Assembly: GCF_018305005.1 (NCBI RefSeq)
Contig: NZ_JAGQEG010000040.1
Span: forward strand, 1 to 47,160
Source: Collimonas silvisoli
GTDB taxonomy: Bacteria; Pseudomonadota; Gammaproteobacteria; Burkholderiales; Burkholderiaceae_D
Length of the DNA stretch: 47,160 nucleotides
Direction: 5' to 3'
The notes under the pieces were generated by a model. It was given only the letters and a program-made list of their open reading frames with translations. It was not told the DNA's origin and did not search any database. The position numbers and the translations under genes were made by a program. Shown piece after piece: positions 28,097 to 38,238 of this stretch (position 1 is its first letter; every line of letters begins with the position of its first letter).

Positions 28097-29362
28097 ATGA
28101 ATGAAACGACAGCACAATCCGGCTATGCGCCGCTGGTGCAGTTTCCGCGCAAGGACGGTTCGCGCACCCCATACAAGGTATTCAATTCGCAAGAAGTCTA
28201 CGACCTGGAACAGGAACGCATTTTCCGCGGGCAGGTCTGGAACTTTCTCGCGCTGGAAGCCGAGATTCCCGGCAACGGCGACTTCAAGAGCACTTTCATC
28301 GGCGACACCCCGGTGGTGGTCACCCGTACCGAAGATGGCACGCTGGCGGCCTGGGTCAACAAGTGCGCGCACCGCGGCGCCATGGTGTGCCGCACCCCGC
28401 GCGGCAACGCCAGCTCGCACAGCTGCGCCTATCACCAGTGGAGTTTCGACAGCCGCGGCAACCTGCTCGGGGTGCCGTTCCGCCGCGGCCAGAAAGGCAT
28501 GAGCGGCATGCCCAAGGATTTCGATCCGGCATGCCATAGCTTGCGCCAGCTGCGCGTCGACAGTTATCGCGGCCTGGTGTTTGCCACCTTCAGTGCAACC
28601 ATGGAGCCGCTGGCGGACTATATCGGCGCCGAAATGCGGCCCTGGCTGGACCGGATTTTCCACAAACCCGTGGTCTATCTGGGCTGCACCCGCCAGTATT
28701 CGAAATCCAACTGGAAGCTGTATCTGGAAAACGTGAAGGATCCCTATCACGCCAGCCTGCTGCACCTGTTCCACACGACGTTCAATATTTTCCGGGTCGG
28801 CATGAAGGCGCGCTCGCTGGTCGACAAGCGGCATGGCTTGCACAGCATCATCACCGCCACCAAGAATGAAGCGGAAACCTCCGACGCCTACAAGCAGCAG
28901 GCGATACGCTCCTTCGACGAAGGCTTCACGCTGGAAGACGATTCCGTGCTGGGCCAGATCAAGGAGTACGAAGAGATGACCACCAACCACATCCAGCCGA
29001 TCTTTCCGCAGCTGGTGGTGCAGCAGATCCACAACACGCTGGTGGCGCGCCAGCTGCTGCCGAAGGGGCCGAAGAATTTCGAATTGATCTTCCATTTCTT
29101 CGGCTATGCCGACGATACCCCGGAACTGCGTGCCTTGCGCATCAAGCAAGCCAATCTGGTGGGCCCGGCCGGCTATATCTCGATGGAAGACACCGAAGCG
29201 ACCGAGCTGGTGCAGCGCGGCACGGTGCGCGATCCGGACGACTGCTCGGTGCTGGAAATGGCCAAGGACAATCCAGACCAGGAAGATACGCTGATCACCG
29301 AAGGCCTGATCCGCAGATTCTGGCTCGGCTATCAGAAACTGATGGGCTTTGAAGAGGCTTGA
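28097..29362 (+). CDS. andAc: Rieske aromatic-ring dioxygenase large subunit (anthranilate 1,2-dioxygenase, AndAc-like)
   Basis: Oxygenase alpha subunit of 421 aa. The Rieske [2Fe-2S] ligands are C90, H92, C110 and H113 (CAHRGAMVC, HSCAYHQW); the mononuclear iron site lies in NVKDPYHASLLHLFH. The length is nearer AndAc (about 423 aa) and NagG than BenA (about 450). No cis-diol dehydrogenase gene (benD) is adjacent, and the neighbours degrade catechol; anthranilate 1,2-dioxygenase gives catechol directly, with loss of ammonia and CO2. Salicylate- or benzoate-type substrates cannot be excluded. First gene of a three-gene operon, divergent from catBCA. Confidence 0.82.
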   Translation: MNETTAQSGYAPLVQFPRKDGSRTPYKVFNSQEVYDLEQERIFRGQVWNFLALEAEIPGNGDFKSTFIGDTPVVVTRTEDGTLAAWVNKCAHRGAMVCRTPRGNASSHSCAYHQWSFDSRGNLLGVPFRRGQKGMSGMPKDFDPACHSLRQLRVDSYRGLVFATFSATMEPLADYIGAEMRPWLDRIFHKPVVYLGCTRQYSKSNWKLYLENVKDPYHASLLHLFHTTFNIFRVGMKARSLVDKRHGLHSIITATKNEAETSDAYKQQAIRSFDEGFTLEDDSVLGQIKEYEEMTTNHIQPIFPQLVVQQIHNTLVARQLLPKGPKNFELIFHFFGYADDTPELRALRIKQANLVGPAGYISMEDTEATELVQRGTVRDPDDCSVLEMAKDNPDQEDTLITEGLIRRFWLGYQKLMGFEEA

Positions 29363-29365
29363 GAC

Positions 29366-29866
29366 ATGACTAACATGACCAACACGACTAACACGACCGA
29401 CATGGCATTGTGGTTCGAACTGCACCAGCTGCAGCAAGCGTATGTGCATGCGCTCGACAACGACCGTCTGGAAGAATGGCCGGAATTCTTCACCGACGAC
29501 TGCCTGTATGAAATCATCCCGCGCGAAAACGCCGATGCCGGCCTGCCGATCGGCATCATCTACTGCGACAGCAAGCGCATGCTGCGCGATCGCGTGCTGT
29601 CCTTACGCCATGCCAACATCTACGAAGCGCATAGTTACCGCCATATGACTTCCGGCCTGATGATCAAGGCCATCGACGCCGATACGGCCGACACCGAATC
29701 CAGCTATTTGGTGATACAAACCCTGCAGGATGGCGAATCGACCGTGTATCAGGCCGGCCGCTACGTCGACCGCGTGGTCAGGACGCCGGCCGGCTGGCGC
29801 TACGCCAAAAAGCGCGTGGTGTACGACACGCTGCGCGTGGCGACCTTGCTGGCTACCCCGATCTGA
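29366..29866 (+). CDS. andAd: Rieske dioxygenase small subunit (AndAd-like)
   Basis: Beta subunit of 166 aa, SnoaL/NTF2-like fold, needed for assembly of the alpha/beta hexamer. The core ALWFELHQLQQAYVHALDNDRLEEWPEFFTDDC, RVLSLRHANIYEAHSYRHM and GWRYAKKRVVYDTLRV is typical of AntB/AndAd. The N-terminus MTNMTNTTNTTDM comes from a short tandem repeat with two alternative ATGs. It begins 3 bp after the large-subunit stop, so translation is probably coupled. Confidence 0.82.
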   Translation: MTNMTNTTNTTDMALWFELHQLQQAYVHALDNDRLEEWPEFFTDDCLYEIIPRENADAGLPIGIIYCDSKRMLRDRVLSLRHANIYEAHSYRHMTSGLMIKAIDADTADTESSYLVIQTLQDGESTVYQAGRYVDRVVRTPAGWRYAKKRVVYDTLRVATLLATPI

Positions 29867-29874
29867 AGGCGAAC

Positions 29875-30936
29875 ATGAGCGACTGGCACGATATCGGCAC
29901 GGCCGACGATTTCAATGAAGGCGAAGCGCTGGCAGTAGTCGCCGGCGGCCAGCCGGTGGCAGTATTCCGGCTCGGCGAAGAAGTGTTTGCGCTGCGCGAC
30001 TTATGCACGCACGGCAACGCCAGGCTGTCCGACGGCTATATCGAGGACGGCTGCATCGAATGTCCGCTGCACCAGGGCTTGTTCGACATCAGGAGCGGCG
30101 CGCCGCGCTGCCTGCCGGTGACCGAAGCGGTGCGCAGTTTTCCGGTACGGATCGTGGCAGGACGGGTGGAAGTCGAAGTCAGGGACACGGCTGCGCTCAC
30201 GCACGAGGCCGCCATCCAGCACAGAAATATGCAGGTCGAGGCGGTCGAACGGGCGGCGCCTGACGTCGCGGTCATCCGGCTGCGCAGCAACGGCGCTGCA
30301 CCTCTGGAGTACATCGCAGGCCAATACGTCGATGTCTTGCTGGCAGAAGGCCAGCGCCGCAGCTACTCGATGGCGACCCCAGCCGGCGCCGATGTGCTGG
30401 AACTGCATGTGCGGCATCTGCCCGGCGGCTTGTTCAGCGACCGTGTATTTGCCAGCCTCCAGGCCGGCGAACAGTTGCAGATCGAAGGTCCGTGCGGCAG
30501 CTTCTACCTGCGCGACGGCAGCCAGCCGGTGATCCTGCTGGCCAGCGGCACCGGCTTCGCGCCAATCAAGGCACTGGTGGAAGAAGCGATCCGCAGCGGC
30601 AGCACGCGCAGCATGTGCCTGTACTGGGGCGGCCGCAAAGAGTCTGACTTGTATAGGGATGCCCTGTGCCGCAGCTGGGCCGAAACCCTGCCCTGGTTCC
30701 GCTACATACCGGTATTGTCGGAACCGGAGGCCGCCGGCCACTGGCCGGGGCGCAAAGGTTTCGTCCATCTGGCGGTGATGCAGGACTATCCCGACCTGTC
30801 GCAGCATCAGGTATATGCCTGCGGCGCGCCGGTAGTGGTAGAAGCGGCAAGGCGCGATTTTGGCGCCGCTTGCGGCTTGCCGGCGGCGCATTTCTTTGCC
30901 GATGCGTTTCTGTCGAAAGCGGACAGCCGGCCTTGA
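29875..30936 (+). CDS. Fused Rieske ferredoxin-FNR reductase of the dioxygenase
   Basis: Electron-transfer protein of 353 aa. Residues 1-105 are a Rieske ferredoxin with C44, H46, C63 and H66 (CTHGNARL, CIECPLHQG). Residues 120-350 are an FNR-type reductase with the FAD motif RRSYSMATP, the NAD-binding GTGFAPIKALVEEAI, and YACGAPVVVEAARRDF. In AntC/BenC the iron-sulfur domain is a plant-type ferredoxin, and in the And system the Rieske ferredoxin (AndAb) and a glutathione-reductase-type AndAa are separate. Here a Rieske domain is joined to an FNR module, a less common arrangement. It lies 8 bp after the small subunit and ends the operon. Confidence 0.8.
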   Translation: MSDWHDIGTADDFNEGEALAVVAGGQPVAVFRLGEEVFALRDLCTHGNARLSDGYIEDGCIECPLHQGLFDIRSGAPRCLPVTEAVRSFPVRIVAGRVEVEVRDTAALTHEAAIQHRNMQVEAVERAAPDVAVIRLRSNGAAPLEYIAGQYVDVLLAEGQRRSYSMATPAGADVLELHVRHLPGGLFSDRVFASLQAGEQLQIEGPCGSFYLRDGSQPVILLASGTGFAPIKALVEEAIRSGSTRSMCLYWGGRKESDLYRDALCRSWAETLPWFRYIPVLSEPEAAGHWPGRKGFVHLAVMQDYPDLSQHQVYACGAPVVVEAARRDFGAACGLPAAHFFADAFLSKADSRP

Positions 30937-31020
30937 AAACGCGATGATCTTCTGACTATTTGCTCACCGTGCTGGATGGAAAATGAACGCACCAGGCCAG
31001 CGCGGCAACAGCCAGGCGAA

Positions 31021-31632
31021 TCAGTAAGCTACGGTAAAGCGCTGGCGCAGATGCTTGGGCTGTTCGATTTCATCCAGCATCGCGATGGCATAGTCTTCCA
31101 TCGAGATATGGCTCTTGCCCTGGCTGTCCGCCATCAGCTGGTCCCGGCCGAGGCGGAATTTGCCGGTTCGCTCACCCGGCGCGAACATGGCTGGCGGCGA
31201 CATGAAAGTCCATTCGATCTCGGTTTCTGCACGCAGGTCGTCCAGGAATTGCTTGCCGGGCACCGCTTCCGCCTTGTACTGGGCCGGAAAATCCGGGCTG
31301 TCCAGCAAGATCACGCCGGGCGCCGTTTCCAGGCTGGCCGCGCCGCCCATCACCAGCAGGCGCCTGACGCCGGCGCTCTTCACTCCTTGCAGCAGCGTGG
31401 CCGCGTTCAGCGAGCTGAACCTGGCCGAACTGACCACCACGTCATGGCCGCGGATCAGCTCCGCCAGTTGCGCGGGCTGGGTAGCGTCGCCCTGGCGCAG
31501 CGCGACGCCGGCCGGTGCTTTGGCCTGATCGGCAGAGCGGGTGATGCCGGTCACGCTGTGGCCGCGGCGCAGGGCCTCGGCAGCGATACGGGAGCCGGCA
31601 TTGCCGGTAGCGCCGATGATGGCAATCTTCAT
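31021..31632 (-). CDS. NAD(P)-binding oxidoreductase, NmrA/SDR-like
   Basis: Protein of 203 aa with one Rossmann domain. The dinucleotide motif GATGNAGSRIAAEALRRGH is at the N-terminus and FRLGRDQLMADSQGKSHISMEDYAIAMLDEIE is the typical C-terminus of the YwnB/NAD(P)H-binding family. Substrate is unknown; relatives reduce quinones or aldehydes. It is divergent from the HxlR regulator, the common arrangement in which HxlR proteins control redox enzymes. Confidence 0.85.
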   Translation of the reverse strand: MKIAIIGATGNAGSRIAAEALRRGHSVTGITRSADQAKAPAGVALRQGDATQPAQLAELIRGHDVVVSSARFSSLNAATLLQGVKSAGVRRLLVMGGAASLETAPGVILLDSPDFPAQYKAEAVPGKQFLDDLRAETEIEWTFMSPPAMFAPGERTGKFRLGRDQLMADSQGKSHISMEDYAIAMLDEIEQPKHLRQRFTVAY

Positions 31633-31669
31633 GATGGTTTCCTTTGGGTTGCGGCCGTGCTGCGCGGCC

Positions 31670-31699
31670 TTGGTAGTTATTTAAAGTAACCAGTATAAT
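31670..31699 (+). promoter_or_regulatory. HxlR promoter with overlapping operator dyad
   Basis: TTGGTA (31670-31675) and TATAAT (31694-31699) with 18-bp spacing form a plausible sigma-70 promoter for the HxlR gene. GTTATTTAAAGTAAC (31676-31690), symmetric at 12 of 15 positions, lies between the two boxes, where a bound HxlR protein would block its own promoter. Confidence 0.55.
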
Positions 31700-31731
31700 T
31701 ATTTGAAACTTATACGCAAGAAGGCACTTTG

Positions 31732-32157
31732 ATGAACGATAGGAACATGCAGGTAACCACCCTCGCCGGTGCGCCTGCTCCGGCACGCGGCAGAGGCCGC
31801 CCCAGTGCCCGCGAAGACCTGCCCTGCCCGATCCGCGATGTGCTGGATCGTATCGGCGATGCCTGGAGCGTGCTGGTCATCACCACGCTGGAACCCGGCC
31901 CGGGCCGTTTCAATCAATTGCGGCGCCAGGTTGACGGCATTTCACAACGCATGCTGACCGTGACCCTGCGCCACCTGGAACGCGATGGGCTGGTGTCGCG
32001 CACCGTGATCCCGAGCACGCCGCCGCAGGTCGAGTATGCATTGACCGATACCGGGCGCTCGCTGTGCCTGCCGCTCAAGGTGCTGGCCGACTGGGCCGGC
32101 AGCCATCAGAGCGTGATCCGTGGCGCGCGCCGGCAATACGATATCGGTGGCAACTGA
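31732..32157 (+). CDS. HxlR-family transcriptional regulator
   Basis: Regulator of 141 aa. The HxlR winged helix covers about 30-120: PCPIRDVLDRIGDAWSVLVITTL, with the conserved Cys that in several HxlR proteins senses electrophiles or redox stress, followed by FNQLRRQVDGISQRMLTVTLRHLERDGLVSRTVIPSTPPQVEYALTDTG. An extended N-terminus of about 28 residues is Ala/Pro/Arg-rich. Divergent from the NAD(P)-binding oxidoreductase it probably controls. Confidence 0.88.
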   Translation: MNDRNMQVTTLAGAPAPARGRGRPSAREDLPCPIRDVLDRIGDAWSVLVITTLEPGPGRFNQLRRQVDGISQRMLTVTLRHLERDGLVSRTVIPSTPPQVEYALTDTGRSLCLPLKVLADWAGSHQSVIRGARRQYDIGGN

Positions 32158-32171
32158 ACGCCGGCAACTGA

Positions 32172-32206
32172 ATCTTTCCCGAAGATTGCAAGTCTTCGGG
32201 AAAGAT
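32172..32206. terminator. Perfect 14-bp hairpin between convergent genes
   Basis: ATCTTTCCCGAAGA and TCTTCGGGAAAGAT enclose a 7-nt loop TTGCAAG. It sits between the ends of the HxlR gene and the autoinducer synthase. There is no T-run on either side, so it may slow or protect transcript ends rather than act as a classic terminator. Confidence 0.55.
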
Positions 32207-32234
32207 CGGTAACGCGGCTGATACAGGCCAAAAA

Positions 32235-33488
32235 TCAGCCGATAGGCGCAGGCGCTGCAGCCATGCGGCGGCTGGACGACCATTTTGCCAGCTGCACTTT
32301 TTCACGAATCGCCGCGCATGCTTGCAAGACCCGCTGAATCTCTACCTCGGTCAAGCCGGAATTAAGTGTCAGCCGGACCAGCGAACGGTTCTTGGGTGTC
32401 GCCGGAGCGCAAAAAACCGCACCGAAAATACCCTCCGCCTGCAGCGCTTTGCGCAACATCAGCGTCATCGGCTCTGTTCCGGCTTCCAGCGCGATGATTT
32501 GCTCGGTGCCGTCGCTGACGTTGTAGCCTAAATCGCTCAAGCCGTCGCGTATGCGGCGTGCATTGCGATGCAAGGCGAGGCGGCGGTCGTCGGCGTTGCG
32601 GATGAAATCGAGCGCTGCATCGAACCAGGCAAGTTCGTGTCCCAGCAAGCAGGAGCTGAAGATGGCAGGACGCGAGGCCGACAGGAAATAGCCTTTGAAC
32701 TTGCTGGAACAGGTAATGAATCCGGCCCGACCGCCAAGCGCCTTGGCCAGCGACGCGGTACGGAAATGCACGCGTTCGGACAAGCCCATTTGCGCTACCA
32801 GACCGGCGCCTCCCGGTCCATGCGTGCCGAGCGAGTGCGACTCATCCACCACCAGAATGCTGCCGCTTTGTTCGGCTATATCCAGCACTTCGGGCAACGG
32901 GCAAGCGCTGCCGTTGGTGCTGTAGACCGCATCGACCACAATCACCCCGGCGCCATGCTTAAGCACCTGCCGCCGCAGATGCTCGATCTCGTTGTGCAGA
33001 AACGGCACCGGACGCGCCTGCCCGGAATGCACGCCTTCCCACAGCGATGCATGGGCTTGCATATCCAGATACACCGGGACGCCGGGGCCGGCGATGCTTT
33101 GCATCAATCCGACATTGCCACTCCAGCCGGATTGCGTGATCAGGCCGTCTTCCGATTCCATGAAGCGAGCCAGCCGTTGTTCGAGACAGTGCTGAGGACT
33201 GCCCTCCTGTAAAAACACCTGCGACATCAACAAATCGACGTCGCCCTGCTTCAGGCGCGATACCTGGGCCTCAATCAAGGCCGGCTCCGCCGCGATGCAC
33301 AAGTAGTCGTTGCTGGACAGGTAAATCGCATTCGGACCGGGCGCGCACCATTTATGCAGGTGTTCGCCACCCAGCAGTCTTTCGATGCGATCAATATAAT
33401 GCTCGTCCATCCGAGTCGATACGAAGGCGGGCAACCGTTGCTCCGCTGCTGAAGTTAATTCAGCATGGTAGCTTGTAGTTAGTGGCAT
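32235..33488 (-). CDS. jqsA: Alpha-hydroxyketone quorum-sensing autoinducer synthase (CqsA/LqsA/JqsA family)
   Basis: PLP-dependent acyltransferase of 417 aa in the alpha-oxoamine synthase family, the group making CAI-1/LAI-1-type signals from an acyl-CoA and an amino-acid-derived substrate. Visible: IYLSSNDYLC near 55, VVDESHSLGTHGPGGAG with Asp215 and His218, and the PLP lysine K249 in RTASLAKALGGRAGF. KBL/BioF enzymes are alternatives, but the divergent sensor kinase and response regulator identify the signal synthase. The start at 33488 is fixed by a GGGAG 6 bp upstream; a longer frame to 33575 runs through the control region. Named by analogy with Janthinobacterium jqsA. Confidence 0.86.
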   Translation of the reverse strand: MPLTTSYHAELTSAAEQRLPAFVSTRMDEHYIDRIERLLGGEHLHKWCAPGPNAIYLSSNDYLCIAAEPALIEAQVSRLKQGDVDLLMSQVFLQEGSPQHCLEQRLARFMESEDGLITQSGWSGNVGLMQSIAGPGVPVYLDMQAHASLWEGVHSGQARPVPFLHNEIEHLRRQVLKHGAGVIVVDAVYSTNGSACPLPEVLDIAEQSGSILVVDESHSLGTHGPGGAGLVAQMGLSERVHFRTASLAKALGGRAGFITCSSKFKGYFLSASRPAIFSSCLLGHELAWFDAALDFIRNADDRRLALHRNARRIRDGLSDLGYNVSDGTEQIIALEAGTEPMTLMLRKALQAEGIFGAVFCAPATPKNRSLVRLTLNSGLTEVEIQRVLQACAAIREKVQLAKWSSSRRMAAAPAPIG

Positions 33489-33658
33489 AATTTTCTCCCA
33501 AGACACTATTCTGTTGACATGCCAGACAGAATAGCCAGCGCTCGCCTGTCTGGAATCTGGAGCCGAGCTGAGCAAATCGTTGTGAAAGCGCGGTAATCAG
33601 CCGGCCCATCAACTAATTGCAGCGCAGCAATTTATAATAGGCTAATATTTCAACTCCC
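33489..33658. promoter_or_regulatory. Divergent jqsA/jqsS control region with two overlapping dyads
   Basis: CTATTCTG (33506-33513) pairs with CAGAATAG (33527-33534), and the overlapping CCAGACAG (33522-33529) pairs with CTGTCTGG (33546-33553). Both dyads are perfect over 8 bp and share CAGA. They lie 18-65 bp upstream of jqsA, where they could be an operator for the response regulator or LuxR-type protein. TATAAT at 33633-33638 is a candidate -10 for the kinase gene. Confidence 0.5.
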
Positions 33659-34984
33659 ATGATTGAGCACACAAGCATTTGGAGCCGGTTAAGCCAGCGT
33701 TGGCCAGTCTGGCGGAACGCCACGAGTACATGGTGGTCCCGCTTTTATAGGCAATACAACAACTCCGTCGAACGTTTGATGGTGCTGGCATGGGTCGCCA
33801 TCGTCGGCATGCCGCTGTACTACATCGTGTGGGCGTACTGGTTTCCGCAACCTTATGAAAATCTCGCCTTGCGGATTTTCGGCGTAGTGCTTTGCCTGCC
33901 CGCCATCTTCGTCCGGCATCTGATCCCAAAAAAATGGCTGACCGTTTATTTTTTTATCGGCCTGACCTATGTGGCGCCATTTTTCTTCACCTTCATGTTT
34001 CTGATGAACGATGGCTCCTCGATCTGGGGCCAGTCACTGCTGATAGCGCTCATCATCCTGTTCCACTTTGACACCACGCTGGCCTTCCTGTCCTACACAG
34101 CGGGCACAGCGCTGGCCTATCTCGTGTATGTCGTGCTCCACGGCAGTGTTATTGCGCCGAGCTTTCATGCGCTGGAACAATGGCCGATCCAGATTTTTGC
34201 CATCCTCACGGTATCGATCGCCAAGGTCAGCAGGAAAGTGCTGGCCCAGGAAAAACTGGCTGGCATGGCGACCGCGCTGGCGACGGTGTCGCACGAACTG
34301 CGCACGCCCCTGCGCAGCATTAACGCCAATGCGCGCGGCTTGAGCCGCCTGCTGCAGGAAGGCCCCACCCCGGCAGCGCCAAACCAGATACCGATGGAAA
34401 AGGCGCTGGCCCGGATCGAACTCGAAGTCCGGCACATGAACAACGTCATTGACCTGTTTCTGTTGAGCGCCTCGACCAGCAGGGAAAATCTGATACCGAA
34501 GGACATCGTGTCGATGGCGGCAGCGGTGGAGCTGATGATGCAACGCTATCCGTTCGTCAACCAGGAACAGCGCGCGCTTGTAGCGATCACGGTCCGCTCC
34601 GATTTTCGTTTTCTGGGGCAAGTCGAATTGTGCTCGATGGTCCTGGTCAATTTGTTGCGCAATGCGCTGACCTCGATCCAGCGCGTCGGCAAGGGCCGCA
34701 TCCGGATCCTGCTGGACGGCGCCCGGGCGCGGCCCAGGCTGTTGTTTATCGATACCGGCTGCGGCATAGAAGCGAGCCGCGCAACGCACATTTTCGAACG
34801 CTTTTATGCCTACCCCGAACATAACGGCACCGGCATCGGGCTGGCATTCTGCACAGAGGTGCTGGAAGCCTGGGGCGCCCACATACGCGTGGTTTCGCGT
34901 CCGCTTGGCTATACCATTTTTGTGCTGGAATTTCCGCCGGTAGTGCAACAAAAAGCAGCAGACGTGCGCTCTCTGTTAAATTAA
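33659..34984 (+). CDS. jqsS: Membrane sensor histidine kinase of the alpha-hydroxyketone system (JqsS/LqsS-like)
   Basis: Kinase of 441 aa. Residues about 35-190 hold roughly six hydrophobic segments with short loops, the sensor type of CqsS/LqsS, with no large periplasmic domain. The HisKA motif TVSHELRTPLRSI has the phospho-accepting H212; HATPase motifs are NLLRNAL (N), DTGCGIE (G1), FERFYAY (F) and GTGIGLAFC (G2). No receiver domain is attached, unlike Vibrio CqsS. Divergent from the synthase and upstream of the response regulator. Confidence 0.85.
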   Translation: MIEHTSIWSRLSQRWPVWRNATSTWWSRFYRQYNNSVERLMVLAWVAIVGMPLYYIVWAYWFPQPYENLALRIFGVVLCLPAIFVRHLIPKKWLTVYFFIGLTYVAPFFFTFMFLMNDGSSIWGQSLLIALIILFHFDTTLAFLSYTAGTALAYLVYVVLHGSVIAPSFHALEQWPIQIFAILTVSIAKVSRKVLAQEKLAGMATALATVSHELRTPLRSINANARGLSRLLQEGPTPAAPNQIPMEKALARIELEVRHMNNVIDLFLLSASTSRENLIPKDIVSMAAAVELMMQRYPFVNQEQRALVAITVRSDFRFLGQVELCSMVLVNLLRNALTSIQRVGKGRIRILLDGARARPRLLFIDTGCGIEASRATHIFERFYAYPEHNGTGIGLAFCTEVLEAWGAHIRVVSRPLGYTIFVLEFPPVVQQKAADVRSLLN

Positions 34985-35037
34985 CCGTATTTTCATCCCA
35001 AGCGCAAACATCGTCCTTGCGCCGGCCAGGCCTCGAC

Positions 35038-36048
35038 ATGAATATTTCATTACCCGTTTATCAACATCCGACCTTGACTATCCTGATCGACGATAGCCAG
35101 AGTTTCCTGGACAGCCTGGCTTTCCAGTTGCCGCCGCAGATGGCGCGCAAAGTGTTCCACGATACTCAGGCCGCCCTGGAGTGGCTGCGCGACGCCTATC
35201 GGCAGTCGCCCAGCAAGAGCCAGTCGATCCGGGTCAACTATGACGAGCAGACATTCTCGTTCGAGCGGCGCACGGTGGCGGTCGATATCGATCAGATTTA
35301 CCGGCAATCGATGAATCGGCGGCGTTTCCTGTTGCCCTCGGTGCTGGTGATCGATTACGCCATGCCGCAAATGAACGGCCTGGCGTTTTGCCAGGCGGTG
35401 CAGGACCTGCCTTGCAAAAAAATCCTGTTTACCGGCCAGGCCGACGAAAAGATCGCGATCGACGCCTTCAATCGCGGCCTGATCGATCGCTTCATCAAGA
35501 AGGGCGACCACGACGCGCTCGATCATCTGGAACTGGAAATACACAGCCTGCAAAAAGAATTCTTCCACGCCCAGTCGCTGACGCTGAAAGATCTGCTGTC
35601 GCGCCATTCCTTTACTTTCCTGTCCGACCCGGCGATGGCGGCGCTGGTCGAGCAGCTGTGCAAACGGCACGGCTTTGTCGAATACTATCTGTTTCCTAAC
35701 CCGACCGGCATCCTGTTCTTTGACATGCAAGGCAAGGCGACCCTGATGGTGGTGGAAACCGAGGCCAGCCTGTTGTCGCAGCTGGAAGTGGCGCAGGATT
35801 ACGGTGCGCCGCTGGAATTGCTGACCGGTTTGCGCGAAATGCGACTGGTTCCTTTCTTTTCCGACAGCGGCGGCATGTATACCGACGCGTTGCGCCACGA
35901 TTGGCTATCATACTGTTTGCCGGCTCAGATTTGTTTCGGAACACAAGACTACTACTGGGCCTTGTTTGATTTCCCTGCGCATTATTTGCGCGAACCATTT
36001 TATTCGTTGGCGGATTTTTTGCGCGATCAATCCGCCGATATAAAATAA
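35038..36048 (+). CDS. jqsR: Response regulator of the alpha-hydroxyketone system (JqsR/LqsR-like)
   Basis: Response regulator of 336 aa with an atypical receiver. The acidic pair is D18/D19 in ILIDDSQSFL, the phospho-acceptor is D106 in VLVIDYAMPQMNGL, and the switch lysine is in FIKKGDHDA. The distance from the acidic pair to D106 is about 87 residues instead of about 40, from an insertion at about 45-95. After the receiver comes about 170 residues with no recognised DNA-binding domain, as in LqsR. ATG 35038 is preferred over TTG 35017. It lies 53 bp after the kinase and 19 bp before the LuxR gene. Confidence 0.82.
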   Translation: MNISLPVYQHPTLTILIDDSQSFLDSLAFQLPPQMARKVFHDTQAALEWLRDAYRQSPSKSQSIRVNYDEQTFSFERRTVAVDIDQIYRQSMNRRRFLLPSVLVIDYAMPQMNGLAFCQAVQDLPCKKILFTGQADEKIAIDAFNRGLIDRFIKKGDHDALDHLELEIHSLQKEFFHAQSLTLKDLLSRHSFTFLSDPAMAALVEQLCKRHGFVEYYLFPNPTGILFFDMQGKATLMVVETEASLLSQLEVAQDYGAPLELLTGLREMRLVPFFSDSGGMYTDALRHDWLSYCLPAQICFGTQDYYWALFDFPAHYLREPFYSLADFLRDQSADIK

Positions 36049-36067
36049 TCGAACCCGAAAGAATCCC

Positions 36068-36805
36068 ATGCTGCGTAGCGAAACCGCTCCTCGAATATCC
36101 ACTCCCGATCTGCTGCAGGTAGTGCAGGTACCCGATTGGGAACAATTGCGCGCCTGCGTGCAGCGTCTGCTGACGCCACTCGGCATTTGCGATTTCATGT
36201 TGCAGATGGAGATCAGCAGCGTCAACGGCGCGTCTCAGATGCAACTGTTCGGCAGCCTGCCAAGCGCGATGCTGCAGCAGTTCAGCCAGCCTGCGGACGA
36301 CAAGAGCGACCCGGTCCGACAACATCTGGCGCGTTCATGCCTGCCGCTGAACTGGCAGGTCGAACAGCTGTGCCTGCTGCACGGCGGACAGATCTATCCC
36401 TTGTTGAAAACCATGGGCATCACGCAAGGCATGAGTTTGGCGATGCACAGCAAACATGCGGTGAGCCGTCTCGATTTCTATAGCAATGCGGCGCGCCAGG
36501 CCGCGCTGTCTACCAGCGTGCAAGCCGACGCCCTGCTGCTTGCCGTCCATCTGCAGGAAGCGGCCGAACTGTTGTGGCGCAAGGCCGCGCCGAATCAGGA
36601 ACCGGTGTTGTCGACGCGCGAACTCGAATGCCTGCGCTGGAGCGCCGACGGCAAGACCAGCAGCGAAATCGGACTTATCTTGGGAATATCCCAGCGCACC
36701 GTGTATTTTCACATGAAGAATGTGGCGATGAAGCTGGGCGTCTACAGCACCCGCCACGCGATCAGCAGAGCGGTCATGATGGGCATCATCAAGCCTAATA
36801 ATTGA
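36068..36805 (+). CDS. LuxR-family regulator with altered autoinducer-binding domain
   Basis: Regulator of 245 aa. Residues about 15-160 match the autoinducer-binding domain and 180-240 the LuxR helix-turn-helix (LSTRELECLRWSADGKTSSEIGLILGISQRTVYFHMKNVAMKLG). In the ligand pocket the conserved DPV (D81) and the following Trp (W96 in CLPLNW) remain, but the YPxxWxxxY segment reads LPSAMLQQF (64-72), so the pocket Trp is Met and the Tyr is Phe. No luxI-type synthase is in the window. It follows jqsR by 19 bp, so it is probably in the same operon and could be an output or a solo sensing a non-AHL ligand. Confidence 0.82.
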   Translation: MLRSETAPRISTPDLLQVVQVPDWEQLRACVQRLLTPLGICDFMLQMEISSVNGASQMQLFGSLPSAMLQQFSQPADDKSDPVRQHLARSCLPLNWQVEQLCLLHGGQIYPLLKTMGITQGMSLAMHSKHAVSRLDFYSNAARQAALSTSVQADALLLAVHLQEAAELLWRKAAPNQEPVLSTRELECLRWSADGKTSSEIGLILGISQRTVYFHMKNVAMKLGVYSTRHAISRAVMMGIIKPNN

Positions 36806-36850
36806 TAAGCTTGATAAGCGACGGCTCTGGCCTGACAGCGTAGCTTAGGT

Positions 36851-37852
36851 TTAGCGTGGCTCGAAGAAGCGTTTGTCGGCCAGCAGACTGAGATTGCCGC
36901 CTAGCTGCGGATTGCGAAACGGCGCCTGTGCCATCAACTCTTGCGATAGCGGAATCAAGGCCGGATCGGCTTGCCGGTAAAACGTTATCCAGCCAAGAAT
37001 GCTGCCTTTCGGTATTTCCTGCTGGGCTCCGGTCTTTTCGACGAACCAGCTCGGATCGGCGATGCCGCTCAAGACCAGGTGCGCCAGCTTTTGCAAGCGT
37101 CCATGCTGGCGCTGGTACCAGTTTTCATGATTCAGATTGGCCAGTTCGGCCATCATGACCAGCGGCGCCAGCGCGTAGTTATGGTAGGACAGTGCACGGC
37201 CGGCGCGATTCAGCTCCAACGGCAAACTGCCGTCGTCGCCGATATCGTTCAACGCAGTGTCGTAGATACGGCTGGCGGCCTTGATATATTTAGCATCGCC
37301 GGTTGCCATCCCGGTCGCCATCACGGCCAGGCCAACCCAGTAATAATGGTTATTGCGCGCCTGGCGGCCGTTATCCGCAAACGCCAGCGCTGCATCCGCC
37401 AGTTGCGGCAGCCATGCCTCGATATGCGCGCGTTGCGCCGGCTCGGCTTGCGGGCGCAGTTTGAGATAGGCCAGCGCCACGCCGGCCAGCGTCCATTTGC
37501 GTTCGTACTGTGCCTGGCTGCTGGCGACTTTGCCCAGCATTGCGCCATCCACCGCCCAGCGGTCCAGCCAGCTCAGCGCGCATTGCGCCGCCGCGCTATC
37601 GCCGCTGGCGAGGTAGCGGTCGGCATTGGCGCTGACCGCGCTCAGATAGTCGCTGAACGGTTTCACCGCCGCCTCGTTCCTGGCCTTGAGCACCGGGTCT
37701 ATGACGGAATAATGGGCGTCGGAGTAATAGCTGTTTGCTTCGATATCGCGCAAACCGGCCGGCGCTGGCGGGCAGCCCGCCAGTGCGCTGCCGCTGCATA
37801 AAAGGAATGCCAAAGGGAGTGTCGCAAACAGCTTGGATTGATGGTCTTGCAT
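36851..37852 (-). CDS. algL: Alginate lyase, polysaccharide lyase family 5
   Basis: Periplasmic mannuronate-specific lyase of 333 aa. A signal peptide (FATLPLAFLLCSGSALA) precedes GCPPAPAGL, the usual mature start of PL5. The catalytic block NNHYYWVGLAVMATG and the Tyr block RALSYHNYALAPLVMMAELAN are intact. GAGGA lies 6 bp before the ATG. AlgL is normally part of the alginate biosynthesis cluster; here no alg gene is nearby, so this is an orphan lyase, suggesting use or breakdown of external alginate. It converges on the LuxR gene. Confidence 0.87.
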   Translation of the reverse strand: MQDHQSKLFATLPLAFLLCSGSALAGCPPAPAGLRDIEANSYYSDAHYSVIDPVLKARNEAAVKPFSDYLSAVSANADRYLASGDSAAAQCALSWLDRWAVDGAMLGKVASSQAQYERKWTLAGVALAYLKLRPQAEPAQRAHIEAWLPQLADAALAFADNGRQARNNHYYWVGLAVMATGMATGDAKYIKAASRIYDTALNDIGDDGSLPLELNRAGRALSYHNYALAPLVMMAELANLNHENWYQRQHGRLQKLAHLVLSGIADPSWFVEKTGAQQEIPKGSILGWITFYRQADPALIPLSQELMAQAPFRNPQLGGNLSLLADKRFFEPR

Positions 37853-37989
37853 TCGGCTTCCTCAAAAAAGATAGTCTGCAATTAATCCTGCGCCGGCGGC
37901 GCTGCTGGTGCAGGTCCGATATCCCAAGACAATTAAAGCATGGCGATCCAGAGAAAGTTGCCATTGAATCATATTGTTGCAGTTTCTTA

Positions 37990-38238
37990 TCAAGGCGTCA
38001 TGCCGGAGCAGGACGAGAGTGCCGCCACCAATTCGGATTGATAGCTGGCGTCGCGGGTCAATTGCTGCGGGGTGACGCCATAATCCAGCGCATGCGCCGC
38101 GATGCAGGTATCCTGGCTGCCGAACAGGCTTGGTTCGAAATAGATATACGCGCTGATTCCAAGTATCGCGACTGCTATGGCGAACAGCAGCGTGCGGCGT
38201 CCTGCAGTTTTCTGCAAATCCTGTGAAATGGCTGACAT
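37990..38238 (-). CDS. Small single-span membrane protein
   Basis: Protein of 82 aa with a basic N-terminus, one hydrophobic segment at about 16-36 (RTLLFAIAVAILGISAYIYF), and a C-terminal region of about 45 residues outside the membrane with two cysteines (C45, C77) that could form a disulphide. No family was recognised. AGGA precedes the ATG. The 15-bp motif TTAGCTAAACAACTA at 38262 ends 24 bp upstream of the start, exactly as the same motif does before the MarR gene, so MarR probably controls it. Confidence 0.6.
   Translation of the reverse strand: MSAISQDLQKTAGRRTLLFAIAVAILGISAYIYFEPSLFGSQDTCIAAHALDYGVTPQQLTRDASYQSELVAALSSCSGMTP

Follow-up and report, generated by a model that had tools for sequence, protein, structure and literature searches.

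A LuxR-type regulator gene behind jqsR in the alpha-hydroxyketone quorum-sensing locus of Collimonas

Gene content of the jqs locus

The window analysed here is a stretch of 47,160 nucleotides from Collimonas silvisoli (contig NZ_JAGQEG010000040.1 of assembly GCF_018305005.1), and it carries an alpha-hydroxyketone quorum-sensing (jqs) locus to which a fourth gene, for a LuxR-type regulator, is joined. The synthase gene jqsA (32235–33488, minus strand) is divergent from the kinase gene jqsS (33659–34984, plus strand) and the response regulator gene jqsR (35038–36048, plus strand), which is the gene order of the JQS systems, and the ATG of luxR (36068–36805, plus strand) lies 19 bp behind the jqsR stop codon. 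The original prediction for this stretch had proposed a synthase divergent from a six-span kinase and a regulator, with a LuxR gene 19 bp further on, and the domain matches and coordinates bear this out.

JqsA is a member of the CqsA/LqsA/JqsA family of alpha-hydroxyketone-type autoinducer synthases (NCBIfam NF005526, 544 bits against a cut-off of 428), and its translation probably begins with the ATG at 33488, placed behind GGGAG, rather than the TTG at 33575 at which the mechanical open reading frame begins. JqsS is a sensor histidine kinase with six hydrophobic spans within residues 35–196, a HisKA domain, His212 in the H-box, and a HATPase_c domain. In JqsR, Pfam recognizes the receiver domain (Response_reg) alone, and the C-terminal domain falls outside the known DNA-binding families. 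A JqsR profile of eight proteins matches PDB entry 6sy9 ('Response regulator'), which we take to be Legionella LqsR, over positions 3–328 of 329 (E = 5.8e-95). Asp18, Asp19, Asp106, Thr132 and Lys155 are invariant, Asp106 occupies the phospho-acceptor place in 8/8 alignment rows, and the full-length likeness together with this aspartate assigns JqsR to the LqsR/JqsR type. The C-terminus of LqsR matches no known output domain (PMC3376566; here and below, statements from cited papers refer to excerpts of them). A structure model of JqsR, with a mean predicted local distance difference test score (pLDDT) of 44.9 from seven near-identical rows, was left unused.

LuxR consists of an autoinducer-binding domain (PF03472, 36140–36562; 34.9 bits against a cut-off of 23) and a GerE/LuxR helix-turn-helix DNA-binding domain (36605–36769; 61.5 bits), the latter almost invariant across Collimonas. 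Its model (pLDDT 86.7; 37 alignment rows) has the LuxR fold, with TraR, QscR, SdiA, RhlR and LasR as PDB matches. From their sequences, all domains of JqsA, JqsS, JqsR and LuxR look intact.

Linkage of luxR to jqsR and distribution of the JAI-1 box

Our Collimonas sample comprises 15 genomes, 13 of which have jqsA. In all 13, luxR lies 12–24 bp behind jqsR, and the 12 genomes other than that of the window repeat the four-gene arrangement unchanged. Because the order is kept in 12/12 other genomes and luxR is under purifying selection (ratio of nonsynonymous to synonymous substitution rates, dN/dS, of 0.16–0.43 in the ligand domain and 0–0.19 in the DNA-binding domain over six closely related pairs), the four-gene linkage is more than chance. 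The two remaining genomes (G001 and G004, one of 1.7 Mb and one 86% complete) lack jqsA and the jqsR-luxR pair alike. Among named records, the closest LuxR proteins are from Collimonas (78–86% identity).

A survey of 392 genomes of the GTDB family found JqsA, at E values up to 1e-100, in 111 of them, 13 from Collimonas and 98 others. In the 87 other jqs loci read in the family, luxR stands beside jqsR once (G407, genus g40), so luxR is a lineage-specific addition that jqs loci do not normally include. A lack of luxR beside jqsR in close relatives, which by the original prediction would speak against it, is not seen within Collimonas (13/13), and it is seen in most other Oxalobacteraceae-type genomes. 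JqsR itself occurs in 71 of 74 g40 genomes, too often for its joint presence with LuxR solos to be informative in this genus, and three of these genomes (G407, G1146 and G1155) have luxR beside jqsR, in the order jqsA-jqsS-jqsR-luxR. In G051 (g38), jqsR and luxR are 5 nt apart, jqsA and jqsS are absent from the 15 kb read, and the best JqsA-type match of the genome is far below the family cut-off. The jqsR-linked luxR loci number 17 in all (13 in Collimonas, three in g40 and one in g38), and because they include G051, where neither jqsA nor jqsS is nearby, it is the response regulator, not the synthase, that luxR accompanies. A profile search for relatives of LuxR gave matches, mostly weak, in 46 of the 392 genomes at E values up to 1e-22; the strong matches read are those of G051 and of eight solos encoded away from jqsR. 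No published description of a jqsR-linked luxR was found in excerpts of the literature on Collimonas jqsA, jqsR and LuxR, LuxR solos and hydroxyketones, and Herbaspirillum alpha-hydroxyketone; within those topics, the pairing appears unreported.

The linked proteins outside Collimonas are related to those within it. JqsR of G407 clusters with the JqsR proteins of the 13 Collimonas genomes (support 98/96), with a mean identity of 70% to Collimonas versus 45–52% to other genera, and its LuxR falls inside the Collimonas LuxR clade (100/100), at 35% identity in the ligand domain and 56% in the DNA-binding domain. Since both proteins group with Collimonas, the jqsR-luxR pairing is either old or was moved between genera as a unit. 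JqsS of G407 groups weakly with Collimonas (85/35), and its JqsA is unplaced, though it does not fall within the clade formed by the other genera. Other linked JqsR proteins are 68–72% identical to JqsR of the window, and the LuxR-less JqsR proteins of 24 further loci 46–55%.

In excerpts of Haack et al. 2016 (PMC5080296), the palindrome TTGAN6/7TCAA, the JAI-1 box, lies upstream of most jqsA-dependent genes and of all jqsA genes examined, and a 49-bp deletion containing the motif lowers vioA promoter activity by 75–90% in two strains. In our survey, the box is present in the jqsA–jqsS gap at 16/16 loci of g12, 8/8 of g19, 32/33 of g40 and 26/27 of g6, against a shuffled-sequence expectation of 0.02–0.26 per genus group; the g40 locus without it is that of G407, the luxR-linked one, and the g6 miss has one mismatch. 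None of the 13 Collimonas gaps contains the box, the 170-bp divergent promoter region of the window (33489–33658) included, and the whole window holds no copy of this motif of the JQS systems (1.04 expected by chance). The three further linked loci have no box in 2.7 kb. In 24 additional LuxR-less g40 loci (17 with jqsS-jqsR, seven with jqsR alone, and jqsA in none of the stretches), the box is found 24 times. The box is thus present at 106 of 107 LuxR-less loci (82/83 plus 24/24) and at 0 of 17 luxR-linked loci. As to the choice of loci, L291–L308 (18 loci) are previously unread JqsR-bearing g40 genomes taken regardless of the box, L283–L288 were chosen for the unlinked LuxR present in their genomes, and the 83-locus count leaves out L054, L055 and L188 as well as 19 loci outside the GTDB family. 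These 22 loci outside g12, g19, g40, g6 and Collimonas contain the box once: the loci outside the family carry no such luxR and all but one of them lack the box, and in L054, L055 and L188 (g37 and g22, jqsA–jqsS loci, two near contig ends) jqsR, luxR and the box were all not found.

Solitary jqsR genes (L285–L288 and L291–L293, with jqsA and jqsS not nearby) have the box 62–101 bp upstream, and judging by them JqsR may also act independently. Collimonas is not alone in having a LuxR-type DNA-binding protein encoded next to a ketone cluster. In f49, both jqsA-bearing genomes found (G119, L042:10292–11149; G705, L241) have a GerE-domain protein divergent from jqsS, 2 of the 19 loci outside the GTDB family; the one scanned (G705) has no autoinducer domain by Pfam and belongs to a different subfamily from the jqs LuxR. 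In L185 (G398, g19), a NarL/FixJ-like protein (by eye, with a receiver-like N-terminus and GerE) is encoded just behind jqsR, and the JAI-1 box is kept.

Several promoter elements were considered. The inverted repeat CCAGACAG-N16-CTGTCTGG (33522–33553), inside the jqsA leader between jqsA and jqsS, recurs by pattern in the same position at 12 of the 13 Collimonas jqs loci, its spacer being 13 or 16 bp long. By eye, most of the arm variants would leave pairing within the jqsA transcript intact if G-U pairs are allowed; in single-sequence folds, the hairpin is not the lowest-energy structure in most of the 13 leaders. The pattern CCAGACAG-N-CTGTYTGG was tried and rejected as a LuxR operator, being found in the jqsA leader of 12 of the 15 Collimonas genomes and at merely three further places in the 15; because the reversed control pattern also matches (11 strand hits in seven genomes), the repeat is taken as a local element, not a regulon operator. 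The 500 bp upstream of the unlinked LuxR solos (12 loci) contain no JAI-1 box, which disfavours a simple common regulon. No Rfam family was matched in 31000–38000, and scans for sigma-70 promoters and terminators gave nothing above chance. Around the locus in the window, genes that by eye resemble those of a Rieske-type ring-hydroxylating oxygenase (two subunits) and its reductase (28097–30936) adjoin it, and an alginate-lyase-family gene (PF05426, 36851–37852) is convergent with luxR. Across Collimonas, the genes downstream of luxR vary and luxR stays; an alginate lyase lies within about 2.5 kb in 5/13.

Ligand pocket and possible role of LuxR

Two of the six residues held to mark the binding of N-acyl-homoserine lactones (AHLs) are W57 and Y61 (PMC10134790, PMC4338825). 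The window segment LPSAMLQQF aligns with YPAAWREHY of LasR, so that Met68 and Phe72 stand at the W57 and Y61 places, and Asp81, Pro82, Trp96 and Gly121 occupy those of D70, P71, W85 and G113 in both the LasR and the family alignment. The original prediction, that the pocket Trp and Tyr are replaced and the Asp and second Trp retained, is therefore correct. Over the 17 linked proteins, the W57 place holds Met, Thr, Val or Leu four times each and Ile once (Met, Thr, Val or Leu among the 13 of Collimonas), and the Y61 place Phe 15 times and Leu twice, with Asp70, Trp85 and Gly113 kept in 17 and Pro71 in 16. None of the 17 has W57 or Y61, the residues expected of an AHL-responsive receptor. Read from these alignments, the pocket is clearly not AHL-typical, yet the altered W57 site drifts; with Met, Thr, Val, Leu and Ile all occurring there, it is unlike a single new fixed contact. 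A possible new polar contact, Asp136, was dropped since its register differs by one residue between two alignments. The nearest outside relatives (about 30% identity; Roseateles, Paucibacter and similar) mostly have Phe or Tyr at W57 in the family alignment, and an RxDFY motif in the ligand domain is common to the Collimonas LuxR proteins, that of G407 and most other subfamily members read.

In the broad sense, the protein is a LuxR solo, with autoinducer-binding and GerE domains and no luxI partner: the only LuxI hit of the genome is on contig C209, adjoining another LuxR that retains both W57 and Y61. It is not of the OryR type, given Phe at the Y61 place and the absence of pip among the genes scanned. 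In Collimonas OK242, an unlinked paralogue (L065:3781–4551) has Trp at the W57 place and lies downstream of a gene that resembles one for an S53-type peptidase. That Trp was rejected as evidence of the ancestral state, as the paralogue nests among Collimonas LuxR proteins (81/97) and gain or retention both fit.

The reading that we favour, at a probability of slightly under one half, is that LuxR serves as the DNA-binding arm of the JqsS–JqsR relay in the jqs cluster of a distinct lineage. JqsA would make the ketone signal, JqsS would sense it and, as expected from its family, pass phosphate to or from JqsR, and JqsR would act on LuxR, most likely via its C-terminal domain touching the ligand-domain side, upon which LuxR would bind target promoters. 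This scheme supposes one transcript, a JqsR–LuxR contact and a set of target genes. In most of the family, JqsR-dependent control would run through the box, by JqsR itself or by a partner reading a Crp/Fnr-like site; in this lineage it would run through LuxR, DNA recognition having been transferred from the JAI-1 operator route. The box can be read as a JqsR-dependent output elsewhere because it follows jqsR, not the synthase, and vanishes where luxR follows jqsR, and this absence is a hint that the route from signal to genes was exchanged. Since jqsR-luxR can occur with neither synthase nor kinase gene adjoining, LuxR is more plausibly a partner of JqsR than the receptor that detects what JqsA makes. 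The proposal that LuxR is the output of the phosphorelay thus gains indirect support from the 17 linked loci, once without jqsA and jqsS nearby, and from the box missing from exactly those. Tentatively, and with less expectation that it holds, JqsR and LuxR might form a split response regulator, its receiver and DNA-binding domain residing in separate proteins in physical contact, whether or not a ketone ligand takes part, so that a transcription factor would replace a cis operator as the output of ketone signalling in this lineage.

Several observations weigh against LuxR as the arm of the relay. All linked loci may stem from one event, so that the mutual exclusion of box and luxR may count only once, and outside families are without box or luxR, so that loss in Collimonas or gain in the sister lineage both fit. 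Linked and unlinked loci are separated by five fixed differences in JqsR, seven in JqsS and none in JqsA; as JqsS has more of them, nothing singles out JqsR, which is also more conserved than JqsA in the LuxR-less g6 (85.3 vs 78.7). A dyad count over the 17 regions gave no operator or palindrome common to the luxR-linked promoters. Eight LuxR proteins of the same subfamily are encoded away from jqsR (G261, G209, G282, G371, G361, G423, G433 and G070), and OK242 carries its unlinked paralogue; given such relatives, the subfamily can work without a jqsR neighbour. Judged by its sequence, the box resembles an Fnr-type site, so that its loss may concern input rather than output.

It is unlikely, in our estimate, that LuxR instead acts in the cytoplasm as a second receptor, for the product of JqsA or the amino precursor of that product, by which the ketone would be read at the membrane by JqsS and inside the cell by LuxR, in a greasy pocket with one acid. 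The W57 and Y61 places are indeed non-polar or Thr in 17/17, with Asp70 and Trp85 kept throughout, and a gapless LasR alignment puts Leu64 at Tyr56 and Phe137 at Ser129, which we take from the LasR structure to be polar AHL contacts. Other LuxR solos altered at W57/Y61 have documented non-AHL ligands (PMC10134790). However, G051 has jqsR-luxR although nothing in its genome exceeds the cut-off for a JqsA-type match, the variable W57 site is unlike a fixed head-group contact, and the register near Phe137/Asp136 is uncertain by one residue. We give the same low weight to LuxR as a solo receptor for a foreign or other signal at the end of the jqs transcript, whose amount, not activity, would track cell density. 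Solos of the same subfamily unlinked to jqs, among them the Collimonas one beside the peptidase-like gene, would suit this, as would the ligand domain being the least constrained part of the locus; plain co-transcription, however, explains neither the persistence of the jqsR-luxR pair without nearby jqsA and jqsS nor the operator pattern that shifts with the pair.

Less probable again is that the JAI-1 box serves as an Fnr/Crp-type site through which oxygen or some other cue acts, an input lost in Collimonas-type loci, luxR having joined for an unrelated reason and the exclusion being a coincidence on one branch. By position counts, the half-sites lean to TTGAT-N4-ATCAA, an Fnr-like consensus, the box lies upstream of jqsR even where jqsR stands alone, and a single split could yield the whole pattern; yet the presence of the motif before most jqsA-dependent genes and the effect of the vioA deletion, in the excerpts of PMC5080296, also fit an output site. 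That LuxR still senses AHLs from the LuxI of its own genome, as the presence of a LuxI-family match with an adjacent AHL-type LuxR and the retention of D70, P71, W85 and G113 might suggest, is highly improbable, since W57 and Y61 are absent from 17/17 linked proteins and both present in the LuxI-adjacent one.

Comparison with known systems

For the question of how LqsR/JqsR-type regulators act on genes, a luxR-linked genus and its luxR-less relatives with a fixed operator offer a natural comparison. If LuxR is the arm of the relay, a non-AHL class would be added to the LuxR-type receptors, and ketone quorum sensing would have two outputs in one bacterial family; if the split regulator holds, JqsR/LqsR-type regulators would hand their state to an exchangeable DNA-binding partner. 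Collimonas lives on fungi. In its relatives, jqsA affects antifungal traits (PMC5080296).

As described in excerpts of PMC5080296 and PMC3566124, the JQS system of Janthinobacterium and Duganella has the same divergent arrangement of jqsA against jqsS-jqsR, the same three families and a short jqsA–jqsS gap; the Collimonas locus differs from it by the fourth gene, luxR, behind jqsR and by lacking the JAI-1 motif at the jqsA–jqsS promoter. Legionella Lqs (LqsA/LqsS/LqsR) has the same LqsR-family regulator, a receiver with a C-terminal domain outside the known output families, whereas its gene order differs, the gene named between lqsS and lqsR being hdeD instead of one for a LuxR protein (PMC3376566, in excerpt). 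The AHL receptors QscR, SdiA, RhlR, LasR and TraR are the closest solved folds to the LuxR model, and the closest by sequence; unlike them, the jqs-linked LuxR has no W57/Y61 equivalents and no adjoining luxI. With OryR/PsoR-type and other non-AHL LuxR solos it shares the LuxR fold, an intact DNA-binding domain, a changed W57/Y61 pair and the retained D70. The plant-associated solos, in the excerpted literature (PMC10134790, PMC4338825), have Met and Trp at W57/Y61 and lie beside pip, whereas the proteins described here have Met, Thr, Val, Leu or Ile and Phe or Leu, and lie beside jqsR.

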